IMG/VR virus record: IMGVR_UViG_3300040770_000087
Span: 1-22,776 of that record
DNA length: 22,776 nt
DNA from: a virus
Strand: one strand, 5' to 3'
The position numbers and the translations under genes were made by a program. The notes beneath the pieces are model-generated. The model worked only from the letters and a program-made list of their open reading frames with translations, was not told where the DNA came from and ran no database searches. The stretch's first letter is position 1. The number at the start of each line of letters is the position of its first letter. Positions 3,851-21,371 of this stretch are shown here, piece after piece.

Positions 3851-4420
3851 TTATTTTAAATTAATTTTGGCGAAGTCGATAGACTTTTTGCCGATTACTA
3901 TTTTCTTTTTTGTTTCGTCCTGCTCTTCGTCCTCGTCGCTGCCGTGGCCCATTGTCGCTTTAAACTTTTTAAAGTCCTCTTGCATGGTTGCTATAGTCTG
4001 AGCTTGCGCTTCGATTAGTGCGGTCGCTGAGGTTTTGAACTCTTCATGCTCCCCTAGCGCTTCGGCTACTGCCCCGATAAACTCGGCAGTCTCCGCGTTC
4101 ATTTCTGCGCCTGGGCCTGCTGGCATTTCCTCGATAACGCTTACGACTTTACCCGCCATAATATCGATAGTGAAGGTTTTACCGTCTACCGCTACAACGT
4201 GCGCGCCGTCGGTTGCTGTGACTGTTACGTCCATAGCTATTTCCGATACGTCCCCAATTTCGGGAAATATCAAAGTTTCGCCGTTGGCGTCGTCTATTTC
4301 TAGTATAGCGGTCGCTTTACGGTCAGCGCCTCCTAATTTCATTTTGGCGAGTCTATCTCTCCAAGTCGGCGCGCCCTCCGCTTTCGCGAAAAAAGCACCC
4401 TTTCTAACTAAGTGTTTCAT
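3851..4420 (-). CDS. Putative head scaffold or assembly protein
   Basis: A 189-residue protein between the protease and capsid genes. The N-terminal half has a beta-like stretch with the repeated pattern dG-x-v-x-dG-k (GAHVVAVDGKTFTI, then MAGKVVSVIEE; residues about 73-98), often seen in Bacteroidetes phage prohead core proteins. Residues about 100-150 are helical and likely coiled coil (ETAEFIGAVAEALGEHEEF, LIEAQAQTIATMQEDFKKF). An acidic SDEDEEQDETKKK patch follows, and it ends with KINLK. The acidic, coiled-coil make-up and position fit a scaffold cleaved by the adjacent protease. Confidence 0.55.
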   Translation of the reverse strand: MKHLVRKGAFFAKAEGAPTWRDRLAKMKLGGADRKATAILEIDDANGETLIFPEIGDVSEIAMDVTVTATDGAHVVAVDGKTFTIDIMAGKVVSVIEEMPAGPGAEMNAETAEFIGAVAEALGEHEEFKTSATALIEAQAQTIATMQEDFKKFKATMGHGSDEDEEQDETKKKIVIGKKSIDFAKINLK

Positions 4421-4428
4421 ATTAATAA

Positions 4429-4947
4429 TTAAATTGGTTCATATATTTCCTCTTCGGGCATTAAGCCCAAAAAAACTAAATCATTTTTACTTAAAAAGTT
4501 GTCGTTCTTTTTAAGGATCTCAAACATGCCCGCAGGCAGCTCTGTATTTTCTGCTATAATTCGACGAACAAAAACGTCGTCGGCTTGCAGGATCTCGGCC
4601 ATTTCTAAAAGGTCTTCTAGTACAAGCCTATCAACTTCTATATCAAACCCCGAAGCGTGGAACAAAAAACGCGCGGCATCGTCGCAGGTCTTAATGTCCC
4701 CTAGCAAAAACAAAAATAAGCCGCATGAATATGCGAACTCGTTAACGCTTGTAATTATTAAAAACCCTTTGGCTTTAAGCTCTGAGATTTTACTTTCCAT
4801 TGCTTTAAGTACTTCGGTATGCCCTCCCTGGCTGCGAATGTCAAACACAACGGCGCAGGGCTCGGCGAGCGTATCGCAAAAAGCGTTAAATCTTGCGAGC
4901 AGGGACTCCGTAAAGTCCTCGTGTACTAAAAACTCAGCTATAACCAT
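4429..4947 (-). CDS. ClpP-like (S14) prohead maturation protease
   Basis: A 172-residue protein with the ClpP fold in outline: a DIRSQGG strand-turn (residues 36-42) matching the DIxSxGG loop; the nucleophile region EFAYSCGLFLFL with Ser74 in place of the usual xASxGxxL serine; and RFLFHASG with His97 in the position of the MIHQP histidine. A C-terminal LSKNDLVFLGLMPEE mirrors the ClpP handle end (xAxxYGLxD). The third catalytic residue is not assigned with confidence. Such proteases cleave scaffold and capsid during head maturation, and the scaffold and capsid genes are next. It overlaps the preceding Cys-rich gene by 10 nt. A short S14 relative with a non-maturation role is less likely. Confidence 0.8.
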   Translation of the reverse strand: MVIAEFLVHEDFTESLLARFNAFCDTLAEPCAVVFDIRSQGGHTEVLKAMESKISELKAKGFLIITSVNEFAYSCGLFLFLLGDIKTCDDAARFLFHASGFDIEVDRLVLEDLLEMAEILQADDVFVRRIIAENTELPAGMFEILKKNDNFLSKNDLVFLGLMPEEEIYEPI

Positions 4948-5174
4948 TTAACGCATTTATTTTTCTCGTTTTTTGCAAATATCTTTGTTGCCAGCGGGCA
5001 GTCGCACCTTGTACAAACATAACCGTTTAACTCTACTATTTTCGAGTCTAGAAAATCCGCATAATTACGTTTTTCTTTCTCGGGGCACTTGCCGCAAATC
5101 TCGGCGCGCCTTTTCTCTTCACTGCTTATAGTGCCTTTTATGTGGCTTGTAACCGATTGTAAAAAGTCTAACAT
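4938..5174 (-). CDS. Small Cys-rich (zinc-binding) phage protein
   Basis: A 78-residue protein at the head of the capsid block. Cysteines at 27, 30, 54, 57, 59 and 74 give CGKC, then CTRCDC, then a lone Cys before the terminal KWL, which looks like a zinc ribbon with an added Cys. The first 20 residues are helical. The ATG at 5174 is the frame start; the nearby ATG at 5178 is out of frame. Being first in the block and upstream of the protease suggests a virion assembly or regulatory role, but none is known to me. Confidence 0.65.
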   Translation of the reverse strand: MLDFLQSVTSHIKGTISSEEKRRAEICGKCPEKEKRNYADFLDSKIVELNGYVCTRCDCPLATKIFAKNEKNKCVKWL

Positions 5175-16317: not shown

Positions 16318-17706
16318 TTATTTAAAACTTTTTTTATATTTATCAATCTTAGCCTTTACCGCGTCCATTAAAACGTCTTGCGTAGAGCCTTTGCGGTCTA
16401 GCGCTTTTTTTACAGTCTCGTCCTCCGTGCCTTGCGCGATTAGGTGGCCTATCACTACGGGGTACTTGCGCCCCTGCCTGTGCAATCTTTTATTAAATTG
16501 CTGGTAAAGCTCCAGGGACCAGTTAAGGCTAAACCATAGCGCCATAGTGTGCCCCTCCTGGAGGTTAAGCCCGTGCGAGGCGCTAGCTGGGTGCGTAAGC
16601 ATAACCTGTATTTTACCCGCGTTCCAGTCCTTAATGTGCTGCTGGGTCTCTAGCTTAACGGGCTTGTACTTCTTAAGCCTTACGAGTAGCCTAGCGAGCT
16701 CATGCTTATAGCTGTACGCGATAAAGACGGGCTTACCGTTCGCCGCCTCGATAAACTCCTCGCAGGCGTCCAGCTTGCAAGCGTGGACCTCGTGAACGTT
16801 TCGCTCTTCGTCGTAGATTGCGCCCCCTGCAAACTGCAGCAGCTTATTACTTAAAGCCGCGGCGTTCATCGCGCTTATCTCGTCGACCTGGGCGGCGATC
16901 AGCTCGAGTACTCTATCGCGCTCGAAGTCGTCGTACTTTTGTTTAATCGCTGGGGGCAGCACTACGTTAATAAAAGTATCGATACGCTCTGGTAGCTCTA
17001 GGTAGTCCTCGGACTTAAGGCTCATACAAATATCTTTAATTTTACTATGTATACGGTCGTCCGCCTCGGGGCTAGGCTCATAGCCGAAGCCGCTATACTT
17101 CTTACTAAAGTAGTTCGAGCGGTAGAAAGTTATCGTTTTGCCTAGACGCTCCCCGCGATCCAGTAGCCAAATTTGCGGCCACAAATCAATCAGCCCATTA
17201 GGCGCTGGCGTGCCCGTCAGCAGGACGACCCGCTGGAAATTAGCCTGTACGGCTTTAAGTGCTTTAAACCTTATAGCAGCGTGATTCTTAAAGCTAGAAC
17301 TCTCATCTATTACGAGCATATCGAACGGCAATTTAGACCCTCCGCACTCGCCTACTAGCCAGGCGATGTTATCACGGCTAATAATGTGAATGTAAGCCTT
17401 AACCGATAAGGCTGCGCGGCGTTGCTTCTCATTGCCTGCGATCTTTGATATAGTTAGGTTACGCAAGTGCGACCACTTAGCGATCTCGTCGGACCAAACG
17501 ACTTCAGCAACACGTTTAGGCGCAACGATCAAAACGCTATTAATTTCGAAGTCCTCGAACATTAGCTGATTGATAGCAGTAAGCGTAGATGTAGTTTTTC
17601 TAACTCAGCCCAACCCCATATCGACGAACAAAGCCGAAAAGGGGTTGGAGCATATAAAGTTAATGCACTCCTTTTGGTAGTTGTGCAAATTGTTTTCGTT
17701 TAGCAT
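16318..17706 (-). pseudogene. SNF2-type helicase with stop codon in Walker A
   Basis: From the ATG at 17706 (7-nt overlap with the HNH gene end) the frame reads NLHNYQKECINFI... VDMGLG, then TGA (codon 34, 17607-17605), Val, Arg, then KTTSTLTAINQL. Normally these would join as DMGLGKT, the SNF2 Walker A. After the break all else is intact: DESS (about 134-137), TGTP (164-167) and QQFNKRLHRQGR motif VI (about 402-413). So a 9-nt insertion with an in-frame stop splits the P-loop. A re-start at 17562 would give a 414-residue protein lacking the ATP-binding loop. It could be inactive, or the insertion may be a sequencing or assembly error. Such helicases act with VRR-NUC nucleases in recombination. 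Confidence 0.75.
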
Positions 17707-18212
17707 TTTTTACGTTTAAAAGTTTGGTTTTTTATATGGTGTTTTGCGTGCTCAGACTGAGACGCAAAAACCTCTAAATTATCAGGATCGTTATTTAAAA
17801 TATTTTCGTCTTTATGGTGTACTACTTCTCCTTTTTTCAAAGGGCGTCCGAGCTTTTGCTCAGCTACTATCCTGTGAGTGTGGCGTCCGTATGTCTTACG
17901 ATAGGCTTTGCCCTCTCCTTTACCTAAGTTTGAGGCTCTTAGTTTAGCCCTAGTCTCGGGCGTCATTCGCTCGGGGTTTAATTCTGCGTTCATTTTTGAA
18001 AACCTTTGGCTCTTCCACTTAGAGGAGCAGGCAGGCCCGCAAAGTATAACATTAAGCGCGGCGCTTGGCGTCCTTGCTACTAACTTGCCGCAAATAAAGC
18101 AGTTATACTCTTTCTTTTTTGAGGCGCAAATTTTATTGCAGTGTCTTTTCGTTTTAGCCGCTGAGGGTTTTACCTTGAAAGGCTTACCGCATTTTAAGCA
18201 AATAGATTCCAT
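17700..18212 (-). CDS. HNH homing endonuclease
   Basis: A 170-residue protein from the ATG at 18212 (a longer frame from 18281 adds 23 residues of weak, hydrophobic sequence and is rejected). Two zinc knuckles come first: CLKC (5-8) with CNKIC (25-29), and CFIC (38-41) with CGPAC (58-62). The catalytic HNH part follows: GEVVHHKDENILNNDPDNLEVF (128-149; His132/133, Asn145) and SEHAKHH (153-159). It cuts DNA and likely promotes its own spread. It sits between the VRR-NUC/DUF7220 and helicase genes, and its 3' end overlaps the helicase start. Free-standing mobile HNH genes are common in phages. Confidence 0.88.
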   Translation of the reverse strand: MESICLKCGKPFKVKPSAAKTKRHCNKICASKKKEYNCFICGKLVARTPSAALNVILCGPACSSKWKSQRFSKMNAELNPERMTPETRAKLRASNLGKGEGKAYRKTYGRHTHRIVAEQKLGRPLKKGEVVHHKDENILNNDPDNLEVFASQSEHAKHHIKNQTFKRKKC

Positions 18213-18238
18213 AATTATTAAGGATTTTAATTTCTTTG

Positions 18239-18269
18239 TAAATATAGCTAACCCCCGCCCCCATTGCAA
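18239..18269 (-). promoter_or_regulatory. Weak promoter candidate for the HNH gene
   Basis: Minus-strand TATATTTA (18239-18246, one base off TAnnTTTG) with TTG at 18267-18269 after a 20-nt spacer, in the 72-bp gap before the HNH gene. The mismatch in the last box base makes it uncertain. Confidence 0.35.
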
Positions 18270-18284
18270 GAAAAAATACAAAAA

Positions 18285-18494
18285 CTATTTACTTTTATTA
18301 AAAACTCTTCTTAATAGGTAGCCTCTAAGCAGCGACGCTAAAAAGAAAATTATTGTTATTACTAAATTTTGGTTAAGTCTTACGGGTATTCCCATAAGCG
18401 GGTAGACTATCGCCTGGATGCAAACCGAGACGGCTAGGCCGACAACTGTCTGTGTTATTGTCTCGATAAGAGACTGTTTTTTGCTTTGACTCAT
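18285..18494 (-). CDS. DUF7220-like small membrane protein
   Basis: A 69-residue protein: MSQSKKQSLIETITQTVVG start, one membrane helix at about 15-33 (VVGLAVSVCIQAIVYPLMG), a short loop, a second at about 43-58 (LVITIIFFLASLLRG) and a basic end YLLRRVFNKSK. The MSQSKxxSLxET start and SxxRGYLLRRxF end match what I recall of the DUF7220 family, common and uncharacterised in phages. ATG overlaps the preceding stop as ATGA, so it is co-translated with the VRR-NUC gene. Confidence 0.7.
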   Translation of the reverse strand: MSQSKKQSLIETITQTVVGLAVSVCIQAIVYPLMGIPVRLNQNLVITIIFFLASLLRGYLLRRVFNKSK

Positions 18495-18775
18495 GGTATA
18501 TAAATTTTTAAGGTTTGCTGTAAGTTCTCTAGGCTGTCGATCACGTAGACGTCAAAGCCTAGAGCCCTTATCTTTTTATGTATTAATTTCTGTATCGGTG
18601 TCGGCTTTTTGCCCGTACTTTTTATCTCGGCGAAAAACGCCACGCCGCCAGGCATTAAAGCGATACGGTCGGGAAGTCCCGAGACGTACACGGCGGGCAG
18701 CTTAAACGATCGCCCGCCCCCTGCCCTTATCGCCGCAGCGAATTTCCTCTCTATAACTTTCTCGTTTGGGCTCAT
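18491..18775 (-). CDS. VRR-NUC domain nuclease
   Basis: A 94-residue protein that is almost entirely the VRR-NUC fold: N-terminal helix (EKVIERKFAAAIRAGG), then GLPDRIALMPGG with Asp36, FFAEIKSTGKKP with Glu50 and Lys52, and PIQ with Gln62. These make the PD-(D/E)xK active site. It is expected to cut branched or flapped DNA during replication or recombination, often paired with an SNF2 helicase. Its start overlaps the stop of the disrupted gene upstream (ATGA). Confidence 0.88.
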   Translation of the reverse strand: MSPNEKVIERKFAAAIRAGGGRSFKLPAVYVSGLPDRIALMPGGVAFFAEIKSTGKKPTPIQKLIHKKIRALGFDVYVIDSLENLQQTLKIYIP

Positions 18776-18962: not shown

Positions 18963-21371
18963 TTACTTTTTACGTGAATAAAATTTTTGCTTGCCGTATA
19001 CGCCAAAGTTTGCGGTCGTGGCTTTATACTCCCAGCTCTCTAGGCTTTTCATAATGTCGTTAATGCTGCCCGTTAAGTAACGGCTCATGTCCTCTTTGTT
19101 TTTACCGAGGCACTCGCACCAAATTTCAGCGATGCAAACCCTATCGCGTTTCCCGATACCCTCCTGCTCGGCTTCGGGATCGTTTAAGAACATACGCCTT
19201 TGATCTAAATCTAAACGCTCCCAGTTAGCAGGCAGCAAAGTATTAAGGTACTGCTCTACTATCCCCGTTCGGTCGTCTACGTCGCAGTGTTCGCGCTGTT
19301 CTTTGTCGGCTATTATCGAAGCCCGGGCGCTTAAGAAAAGACTTTCGCCTTTACTATATAAGTATGTAGCCTCCGCCCATATTTGCGGGATCTCGGCGTC
19401 TAAATCGTGCCATACGCTTTTAAGTACCTCCTCGGGCTTAACGTCTATTGGCATAAAGCGACGGTTCCCGCTGGGGTCTGTAAAAAGCTGGTGCTTGTTA
19501 GAGGTCGCAATAAATATATTTTGACGTGGGTAAGACTCGACTACTTTACCGTAGGCAGGTCGATAGGTGTCTATTTGCTTAGTTAGGTAATGCTTTACGC
19601 CCTCGACGTCCGACTTTCTAAATCCTGCCATTTCTGCAATCTCCATAATCCAAGCGCCCTGCAGTTGCTCAAAGGCTTGGTTTCCGCTTACCGTCATAAA
19701 GCTATCGCTGTACCACTCGCCTCCGAGCTTATTTATAAACGTGCTCTTATTGGTCCCCTGGGCGCCGATCAGTGTTAATACTAGATCGAATTTTTGCCCT
19801 GGGTTATATACTCGAGATACCGCAGCGACTAAAGTTTTTCGAATTGCCTCTCGTGTATAGGCGTTGTCGGGCGCACCGAAGTAGTCTATAAGTAGGTAGT
19901 CTACTCTTTCCTGCCCGTCCCACTCCAAGCCGTTAAGATAGTCCTTTATAGGGTGGAAAGAGCGCTTTTCAAACTCTAGGGCCAGGGCGTCGTCGATCTT
20001 TTGAACGCCCGTAATACCGTATATAGTTTCTATGTAATTACGGATCCCCGAGTAGTCCACATTACGCAAAGGCTCGGGCTTTGTAACTCTTCGCCAGGGC
20101 AAAGTCTTAAACGCGTATCGTTTATTATCGAATTGGTTTTGCTTAAAGCAGTCTTTGAGCCTTGCGTCGTTGGTAAAGATAAGGTTCAAGTTTTGCGCAC
20201 TGGATAGATAAGCGCCTCGGTTGTCTGTGTCTAGCTCACTCATCCACTCTACGGCGTCGCTTGCCCCCTCCACGGCTTCGGGCTCGTCCAGGTCGTAGTC
20301 GTCTAGGCTGTCGACAAAATCGTACTTAATAGCCTCTAAGCTCTCGGCGGCGATCAGCTTCTTAACCTCTTTATCTTTAAGGGCCAGCGCCTCCATAGCT
20401 GCGAAGCTCTTAGCCTTTACGCCTGTAGTTTGGTTCTCACTGTCTAGGTGTCCGAACTTGTGCAACCTTACGAGATCAAAGGCGTTTGAAGTCTTGCCGC
20501 TGCAAGGGTCTGTACCGTGGTGACTAAATGCGAAAGTATCTTCGTAAACGATAAGCCCGCCCGCCGTAGATCCTTGCGTATAAGTGTATCGGTCGTCTCT
20601 GTCGGTCGGGCTATACTCGTCGATTAAATACTTTTCGATAACCTCAGCGATCCCGTGAGTACGGCAAAACGCGCCAACGATCCCGCTTTTCTCTCTCGGG
20701 TCGGCCTGCTTCTTTGCTCGGTCGCCTAGCTCTCTAAGCATTTGCCCCGAGGTTGGCCAAAGGCTCGTATCAGTCCAATCGATATAAGAGGCTAGGATCT
20801 CGTCAACGTTTAACCAGGCGCCGTCCTGTACTTCGCAGTAGTAGTCGACGTCCTTAGGTACTACGGGGTAAAACATTAAGCGGTTAGTCTCAAATGTAGT
20901 ATTATCGAATAAATCGACGCCCAGCTCGCCCGCCACTTGACGGCCCACGGCTACGTACTCGTCGGGCGTACATTCGCGATCTAAAGGCATTAATAGTCTG
21001 TACCTCGGCATAGCCTTTGAATGTTTAGCCGTTCCGTGCAGGATCGCCGCGTTAGTGTATTGTAGTGTGAAGTCCTCCCAAAATTCAAAATGCGCGAAGT
21101 CGATGTCTAAAGTTAACAACTGTCTGTGCATTACATTTTTAGGGCTACGCTTCCCGCTGCGTAAATAGCCACCGACGTAGCCACCCGCTGCGCCTTTAAG
21201 CGATGTCTGCTCTTCTTTGTTCGCAGCGATAAAAGCCTTATATCCGACCGTCATAACAGACGGCTCGCTTATAGTTTTTACAAAGTCCGACCAGTTAAGC
21301 GTCTTGTTTTTCCAAACTGTGCTACGGACGTTTAGGCCCGTAGCGATATTAATTTTTCCGTCGTGTATCAT
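18963..21371 (-). CDS. Primase-helicase (VapE-type) replication protein
   Basis: An 802-residue protein. The N-terminal part has archaeo-eukaryotic-primase-like features: LTLDIDFAH with Asp89 and Asp91, HSKAMPRYRLLMP (117-129), and TFETNRLMFYP (159-169). A DPCSGKTSNAFDLVRLHKFG stretch (288-307) links to the C-terminal VapE helicase (PF05272 type): GLEWDGQER (481-489), Walker A GAQGTNKST (536-544), Walker B WIMEIAE (574-580), TSNKHQLFTDPSGNRRF (623-639). It likely unwinds and primes phage DNA for the family A polymerase. ATG overlaps the preceding stop (ATGA). Confidence 0.9.
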   Translation of the reverse strand: MIHDGKINIATGLNVRSTVWKNKTLNWSDFVKTISEPSVMTVGYKAFIAANKEEQTSLKGAAGGYVGGYLRSGKRSPKNVMHRQLLTLDIDFAHFEFWEDFTLQYTNAAILHGTAKHSKAMPRYRLLMPLDRECTPDEYVAVGRQVAGELGVDLFDNTTFETNRLMFYPVVPKDVDYYCEVQDGAWLNVDEILASYIDWTDTSLWPTSGQMLRELGDRAKKQADPREKSGIVGAFCRTHGIAEVIEKYLIDEYSPTDRDDRYTYTQGSTAGGLIVYEDTFAFSHHGTDPCSGKTSNAFDLVRLHKFGHLDSENQTTGVKAKSFAAMEALALKDKEVKKLIAAESLEAIKYDFVDSLDDYDLDEPEAVEGASDAVEWMSELDTDNRGAYLSSAQNLNLIFTNDARLKDCFKQNQFDNKRYAFKTLPWRRVTKPEPLRNVDYSGIRNYIETIYGITGVQKIDDALALEFEKRSFHPIKDYLNGLEWDGQERVDYLLIDYFGAPDNAYTREAIRKTLVAAVSRVYNPGQKFDLVLTLIGAQGTNKSTFINKLGGEWYSDSFMTVSGNQAFEQLQGAWIMEIAEMAGFRKSDVEGVKHYLTKQIDTYRPAYGKVVESYPRQNIFIATSNKHQLFTDPSGNRRFMPIDVKPEEVLKSVWHDLDAEIPQIWAEATYLYSKGESLFLSARASIIADKEQREHCDVDDRTGIVEQYLNTLLPANWERLDLDQRRMFLNDPEAEQEGIGKRDRVCIAEIWCECLGKNKEDMSRYLTGSINDIMKSLESWEYKATTANFGVYGKQKFYSRKK

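Follow-up and report, generated by a model that had tools for sequence, protein, structure and literature searches.

Does a stop codon inside the nucleotide-binding loop of a phage helicase mark a decaying gene, or one that the ribosome still reads as a whole? The question is raised by a stretch of viral DNA from IMG/VR (22,776 bases; hereafter the window), in which a helicase gene extends from an ATG at 17706 on the minus strand to a stop at 16318 and is interrupted by a single internal stop, a TGA. Its affinities lie with the SNF2-type enzymes (Pfam SNF2-rel_dom, 1e-15; PHROG 62 DNA helicase, 2.4e-144; Helicase_C at 3e-4, below the cutoff). At the P-loop the minus strand reads GAT ATG GGG TTG GGC / TGA GTT AGA / AAA ACT ACA, with GAT as codon 29, and the Walker A motif accordingly takes the form DMGLG-stop-V-R-KT, with nine nucleotides lodged exactly between GLG and KT. 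The first-pass annotation, which had placed a stop-containing 9-nt insert at 17599-17607, was thus correct in both position and sequence, and also in taking the helicase to be intact on either side, there being no other break along its length. It had further pointed to an HNH endonuclease gene ending where the helicase begins; this gene indeed runs to 17700 and thus a few bases into the helicase gene. The HNH protein retains every invariant residue of the family alignment (A2), the conserved His residues included, while a PDB search for its relatives returned a weak zinc-finger match at best. The features of the locus are collected in the table.

Table. Features of the split helicase locus in the window (coordinates are those of the window)
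Feature	Position	Strand	Basis or remark
SNF2-type phage helicase gene, interrupted at codon 34 by TGA	16318..17706	-	463 codons including stops
Helicase N-part, codons 1-32 (MLNENNLHNYQKECINFICSNPFSALFVDMGL), preceding the take-off codon	17611..17706	-	sequence
Predicted take-off codon GGC, second Gly of GLG	17608..17610	-	sequence
In-frame stop TGA, first codon of the insert	17605..17607	-	sequence
9-nt insert TGAGTTAGA	17599..17607	-	sequence
Predicted gap TGAGTT, within the 9-nt insert	17602..17607	-	sequence and hop table
Predicted landing triplet AGA, an exception in the family, mismatched with GGC	17599..17601	-	sequence and hop table
Predicted resume codon AAA	17596..17598	-	sequence
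Helicase C-part from KT on, intact 426-aa ORF	16318..17598	-	SF2 motifs VIDES, LTGTPAPNG, QFNKRLHRQGR
HNH endonuclease gene, 170 aa, cysteine-rich N-terminus, best start ATG 18212	17700..18212	-	Pfam HNH_3 (PF13392), 8e-13
DUF7220 small protein, inside the interval without alignment to L002	18285..18494	-	Pfam DUF7220, 1e-27
VRR-NUC-like nuclease, normally the gene preceding the helicase	18491..18775	-	PHROG 93 endonuclease, 4.6e-21
Putative exchanged cassette: HNH, small ORF, helicase N-part and gap	17589..18535	-	no detectable DNA similarity to L002; flanks align

The interruption recurs well beyond the window. A survey with the downstream part of the window helicase as query recovered 56 viral loci, most of them with an uninterrupted P-loop; of the exceptions, one reads GGC-TGAAGGC-AAA (L016) and another ATG-GGC-TGACTT-GGT-TTA-GGG-AAA (L020). 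Scans with the pattern GATATGGG..T.GG. followed by a stop added same-family helicases in which an insert separates GLG from KT, at least 46 of them with TGA, at least 10 with TAA and at least 57 with TAG; non-redundant helicases among the matches listed number 107 split versus 156 intact. The inserts in these relatives are mostly of 4-12 nt (five are of 1-2 nt), and three frames and three stop codons are represented. As these pattern-based sets demanded a stop, they say nothing about how often a stop is present, on which only the blind sets bear. In the blind survey, a profile beginning at KT (A1) was run on GTDB genomes and IMG/VR, and 22 of the approximately 160 helicases recovered proved to be split (21 called by script and L426 by eye), though these are not fully independent since a few loci came from both collections or overlap earlier ones. 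Although a stop was not a detection criterion, the insert begins with one in all 22 cases, always directly after the take-off codon (TAGGA, TAGC, TGAT, TGAGC, TGAGT, TGAGGC, TGAGGT, TGAGGA, TGAGGGC and TGAAAGGC). The suspicion that the interruption is more than a random error is borne out by these differing stop-containing inserts at the same motif in over 100 non-redundant relatives. The split helicases also occur in cultured bacteria (Geosporobacter, Mobilitalea, Clostridium algidicarnis, Streptococcus porci, Succiniclasticum and Heliorestis) and in deposited phages (Paenibacillus phage Pd_22F, Erysipelothrix phage phi1605 and Ruminococcus phage NatCom_29429). On a tree of the C-part (one FastTree run on sequences among the matches listed, with the change count being indicative) approximately 36 parsimony changes between the split and intact states are needed, as against approximately 84 with shuffled labels; hence, the split trait is clustered and yet moves often.

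Two further explanations were set aside. Stop reassignment (TGA as Trp, and others) is ruled out, since the inserts use all three stop codons and in most cases alter the frame; an intein or self-splicing intron at the P-loop would have to fit into 9 nt in the window and at most 12 nt in the relatives, which is too small.

The geometry of the inserts suggests how the gene might be read across them. For the 137 tabulated split genes, a scan of hops of 1-15 nt, which selects for the product xMGxGK[TS] and is informative in its landing codons and its spread of lengths, found that a hop from the pre-stop codon to the triplet just ahead of the codons for the rest of the P-loop would yield this motif with no added residue. 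The hop lengths are 1, 2, 4-10 and 12 nt and distribute modulo 3 as 30/42/65 (n = 137). That the insert keeps the frame is, therefore, true in the window but does not hold for the family. Where the hop is of 6 nt or more, such that the take-off, stop and landing triplets do not overlap, 41 of the 46 landing triplets encode the same amino acid as the take-off codon, with about three being expected for random triplets. The matched codons are mostly Gly, but also Leu (TTA/TGAA/TTA in L626) and Val (GTC/TAG/GTC in L640), and where the gap lies at the first Gly of the motif (L020, L426, L606, L610, L616, L625, L627, L637 and L649) the matched codon shifts accordingly. The landing triplets of the short hops share bases with the stop: they are GGN after TAG at +5 in 52 cases, and AGY, GAY or once AGA in the remaining +4 and +5 hops, those of +4 and the TGA-type +5 landing on the near-cognate AGY/GAY. 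CGC serves as the landing triplet in L064, L105, L176 and L630. In L227, L241, L245 and L595 the insert is a lone T (GGG T AAR), which resembles a +1 frameshift version of the device, and the insert of L182 is +2. RNA structure near the gap does not rise above that of shuffled sequences, the mean fold z being approximately 0 in the split and intact sets alike.

Matched codons on either side of a stop have the geometry that ribosomal 'stop-hopping' would be expected to use. They could alternatively stem from a duplication during repair; translation is favored because the stop is constant, the flanks are conserved and the Walker A motif is restored in every frame. The earlier suggestion of a recoding event thereby gains support from the stop-first inserts and matched flanking codons across the family. 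Recoding of a more familiar kind, namely readthrough of the stop or ordinary programmed frameshifting as in prfB, would have its classical trigger in a stop occupying the A site, and the four +1 inserts and the single +2 insert are in keeping with it. However, the distribution of hop lengths shows that the frame is not a constant +1, and readthrough or a single-nucleotide shift would leave extra residues in the Walker A motif in nearly all cases, such as GLGxVRKT in the window, making this account highly improbable.

Evidence from both halves of the split genes further bears on whether they are still in use. The downstream ORF has a median length of 423 aa in split genes as against 421 aa in intact ones, with the SF2 motifs conserved in the former; the N-part, of approximately 31-33 residues, is conserved in sequence, and the dN/dS of the 31 codons before the gap is 0.15 in split versus 0.11 in intact genes (averages over related pairs). 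Both halves thus appear to be under purifying selection, which speaks against the proposal of a pseudogene in progress. The related proposal of a scar left by a lost mobile element finds no support either, as the HNH gene remains in place with its catalytic residues and the inserts are maintained, each of those found blind leading with a stop. A variant of these ideas, in which the HNH enzyme cuts the P-loop DNA and error-prone repair leaves inserts that kill the helicase, would see the split genes as recent pseudogenes. It accommodates the placement of the inserts at the presumed cut site, their variable length and the resemblance of some to short duplications (CTTAGG-TTAGG), and a fill-in duplication could even yield matched codons. 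Nevertheless, it is unlikely, given the invariable leading stop in the blind set, the open and conserved state of the entire C-part, the low dN/dS of the N-part, the persistence of large split clades (with 13 and 18 members) and the near-lack of further lesions.

Another alternative is that two products are made, with termination followed by reinitiation to give a helicase that lacks the Walker A motif and has a separate or regulatory role. The GenBank annotations of Pd_22F, phi1605 and Javan422 do place the helicase start downstream of the gap. However, 105 of the 137 split genes have no ATG, GTG or TTG upstream of KT in the frame of the C-part, and reinitiation would consequently cost them the Walker A motif; the distance from KT to the first ATG beyond it has a median of 64 codons and varies widely across the 137 genes, there is no conserved start, and conservation of the N-part and of KT would not be expected. 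With so many genes lacking a start upstream of KT, the case of relatives sharing the insertion and using a functional downstream start did not materialize either, and we hold the two-product reading to be very unlikely.

The reading of the inserts as bypassed gaps draws in the adjacent HNH gene as well. Of the 22 blind split loci, six have a homolog of the window HNH between VRR-NUC and the helicase; none of the 104 intact [DE]MGLG loci does, and four intact loci in which the motif is DCGLG or ECGLG do (p=7e-4 in a Fisher test of the split loci against the whole intact set). The other 16 split loci lack such an HNH beside the helicase, and in five genomes of this kind we found no copy elsewhere, which weighs against the homing account; the gap can outlive the endonuclease. 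In the converse search, starting from the HNH (profile A2 on IMG/VR and 398 genomes of one bacterial phylum), a P-loop ATPase lies directly downstream of the HNH in 67 of 84 loci. At least 31 of these are split, across three helicase families; L606, L610 and L625, called intact by the script, are actually interrupted at the first Gly. The intact neighbors mostly have an unusual Walker A motif (ECGLG, NCGLG, SMGLG, DLGLG or AMGMG) or are other ATPases, with L612, an intact neighbor with a canonical Walker A motif, being an exception. The link to a homing enzyme raised in the first-pass annotation is, therefore, upheld at the level of the family, whose members sit upstream of P-loop ATPase genes with frequent splits or alterations in the P-loop. 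An HNH gene beside such a gene fits a free-standing homing endonuclease, for which the P-loop would be the likely target. DCGLG, ECGLG or NCGLG in place of DMGLG is also seen beside the HNH in L446, L464, L512, L513, L574, L599, L617 and L636; these are possibly substitution alleles that escape the endonuclease. Kin of the HNH also occur directly upstream of unsplit P-loop ATPases (GPSGSGKT, STGGGKT, GPPGTGKT) in L635, L644, L645, L648, L650, L655, L660 and L664.

If the HNH enzyme were to act at the P-loop, a trace should be visible in the DNA around the gap. At 80-99% identity of the C-part, the identity of the N-part is 0.59 between split genes and their nearest intact relatives, as opposed to 0.85 between intact genes and 0.90 between split ones. 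In the window and its nearest relative (L002) the C-part is 91% identical and the N-part 35%; blastn similarity between the two stops at 18536 and returns at 17589, the L002 counterpart of the unaligned interval being a DNA methyltransferase. These comparisons suggest that the N-part and the gap are swapped as one unit with the junction at the gap. Replacement of the N-part with retention of the C-part is what would be expected if gene conversion had started at a P-loop break, the co-conversion tract from the HNH gene to the presumed cut site being seen as the replaced N-part next to the conserved C-part. The Corynebacterium phages StAB, which has the HNH, and Stiles, which does not, provide a natural pair: their flanks are 96% identical and the changes cluster at the P-loop, where the HNH bearer has a recoded, uninterrupted motif, LGLGMGKT for LGMGLGKT (3000-3050 of L586, the StAB locus, against L588). 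This looks to be a second way of disguising the site. The interval between VRR-NUC and the helicase is also an insertion hotspot, with DNA methyltransferase-like genes in L002 (4538-5866), L010 (4919-5860) and L014 (5120-5869). The DUF7220 protein sits between VRR-NUC and HNH in the window, while a similar protein in L010 is upstream of VRR-NUC.

Read together from the sequences, the position of the inserts, their leading stop, the matched codons, the purifying selection, the HNH linkage and the exchange junction suggest that P-loop DNA is the target of the HNH enzyme, that the altered P-loop is protected from it, and that the ribosome hops. Accommodating these elements, we posit an HNH homing-endonuclease family that targets the DNA encoding the Walker A motifs of phage ATPases. 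Its carriers would shield their own copy by changing the P-loop DNA, most commonly through a stop-first micro-insert, mostly of 4-12 nt. Upon reaching the stop, the peptidyl-tRNA on the preceding codon (usually Gly GGY) would release the mRNA and re-pair with the triplet beside the resume codon in a 'stop hop', yielding DMGLG-KT without extra residues whatever the length of the insert. The HNH gene, the N-part and the gap would travel jointly via gene conversion ending at the gap. On balance, we think it probable that the locus in the window is such a homing cassette, with its target disguised by a translationally bypassed micro-gap, and that its nine nucleotides are a coding gap rather than a lesion.

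The window itself is not the best representative of its family. Its take-off codon GGC and landing triplet AGA are unmatched, giving the poorest match of the set and probably poor pairing with the tRNA that reads GGC, and an exact 22-mer around its gap found no other copy in an IMG/VR search. It is conceivable, if on the doubtful side, that a window-specific decay or an assembly error has put AGA for GGN here in a family that is otherwise bypassed, a reading compatible with the explanation offered for the family. As against this, the rest of the gene and the HNH are intact, and AGA as a landing triplet recurs in L063, from a different phage, which with its duplicate is the only occurrence outside the window.

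Among known systems, the closest in organization is gene 60 of phage T4, the only well-studied case of bypassing in phages in the literature searched, in which a bypassed, stop-containing insert is thought to shield the gene from the neighboring HNH homing endonuclease MobA (PMC5009743, PMC2988022). Shared features are the stop directly after a Gly take-off codon, the matched Gly landing codon in the family and the free-standing HNH neighbor. However, the T4 gap is of 50 nt as opposed to hops of 1-12 nt (mostly 4-12) here, there is no detectable stem-loop, and the present inserts lie in the Walker A motif of helicases from over 100 phages and three helicase families, with take-off also from Leu or Val. 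Given the differences in gap length and RNA structure and the unmatched landing codon of the window, we do not class them as being of the gene 60 type. The many bypassed inserts and the sometimes imperfect landing codons are also reminiscent of the mitochondrial bypass elements of Magnusiomyces capitatus, which have no tie to phage P-loop genes. Those elements are longer and have hairpins. Synthetic 'stop hops' in Escherichia coli, as summarized in a recoding review, had matched codons flanking a stop, with hops of +5 or +6 in which 9 nt gave one amino acid (Weiss 1987, via PMC5009743); those were constructs, whereas the inserts here are natural. The same 2016 review knew of no natural in-frame stop hop and notes a long-standing expectation of short-distance counterparts of gene 60 whose landing codons match (PMC5009743). 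Its candidate for short-range bypass, the terminase of Streptomyces phage Hau3, involves a UUA codon and is given no HNH or P-loop link in that account (PMC5009743). Free-standing HNH homing endonucleases of T-even phages, the Mob proteins, co-convert flanking DNA (PMC2988022), and as with them the present HNH gene lies in a polycistron beside its presumed target; in contrast to them, the presumed cut site is approximately 100 bp from the HNH gene, and the predicted target is P-loop DNA in several ATPase families. We found no published account of stop-first inserts in P-loops in the literature searched, which included few subscription papers.

We further consider it rather likely, if with somewhat less assurance than the reading of the window, that such mobile 'translational micro-introns' are widespread, in which HNH cassettes target the DNA for Walker A in several families of phage ATPases and natural short stop-hops in any frame (mostly of 4-12 nt, with Gly, Leu or Val take-off) neutralize the cassettes' own inserts. 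This suggests that selfish endonucleases may exploit the Walker A motif, one of the best-conserved in biology, and that many phage helicases annotated as truncated may be made whole. As a natural collection of over 100 inserts that spans every frame and uses all three stops, the family also amounts to a ready-made experiment on the release and landing of peptidyl-tRNA.

Some minor observations concern other genes in the window and the relatives. A VapE-like primase/helicase is encoded at 18963-21371 of the window (PF05272, 8e-74). More distant HNH genes lie upstream of intact helicases with EMGTG or DMGLG-KS (L007, 2258-2881; L011, 1795-2430). In L023 (3528-5863), an HNH/AP2-like ORF (4378-5109) apparently interrupts a DNA polymerase gene and might represent an intron or a homing insertion.
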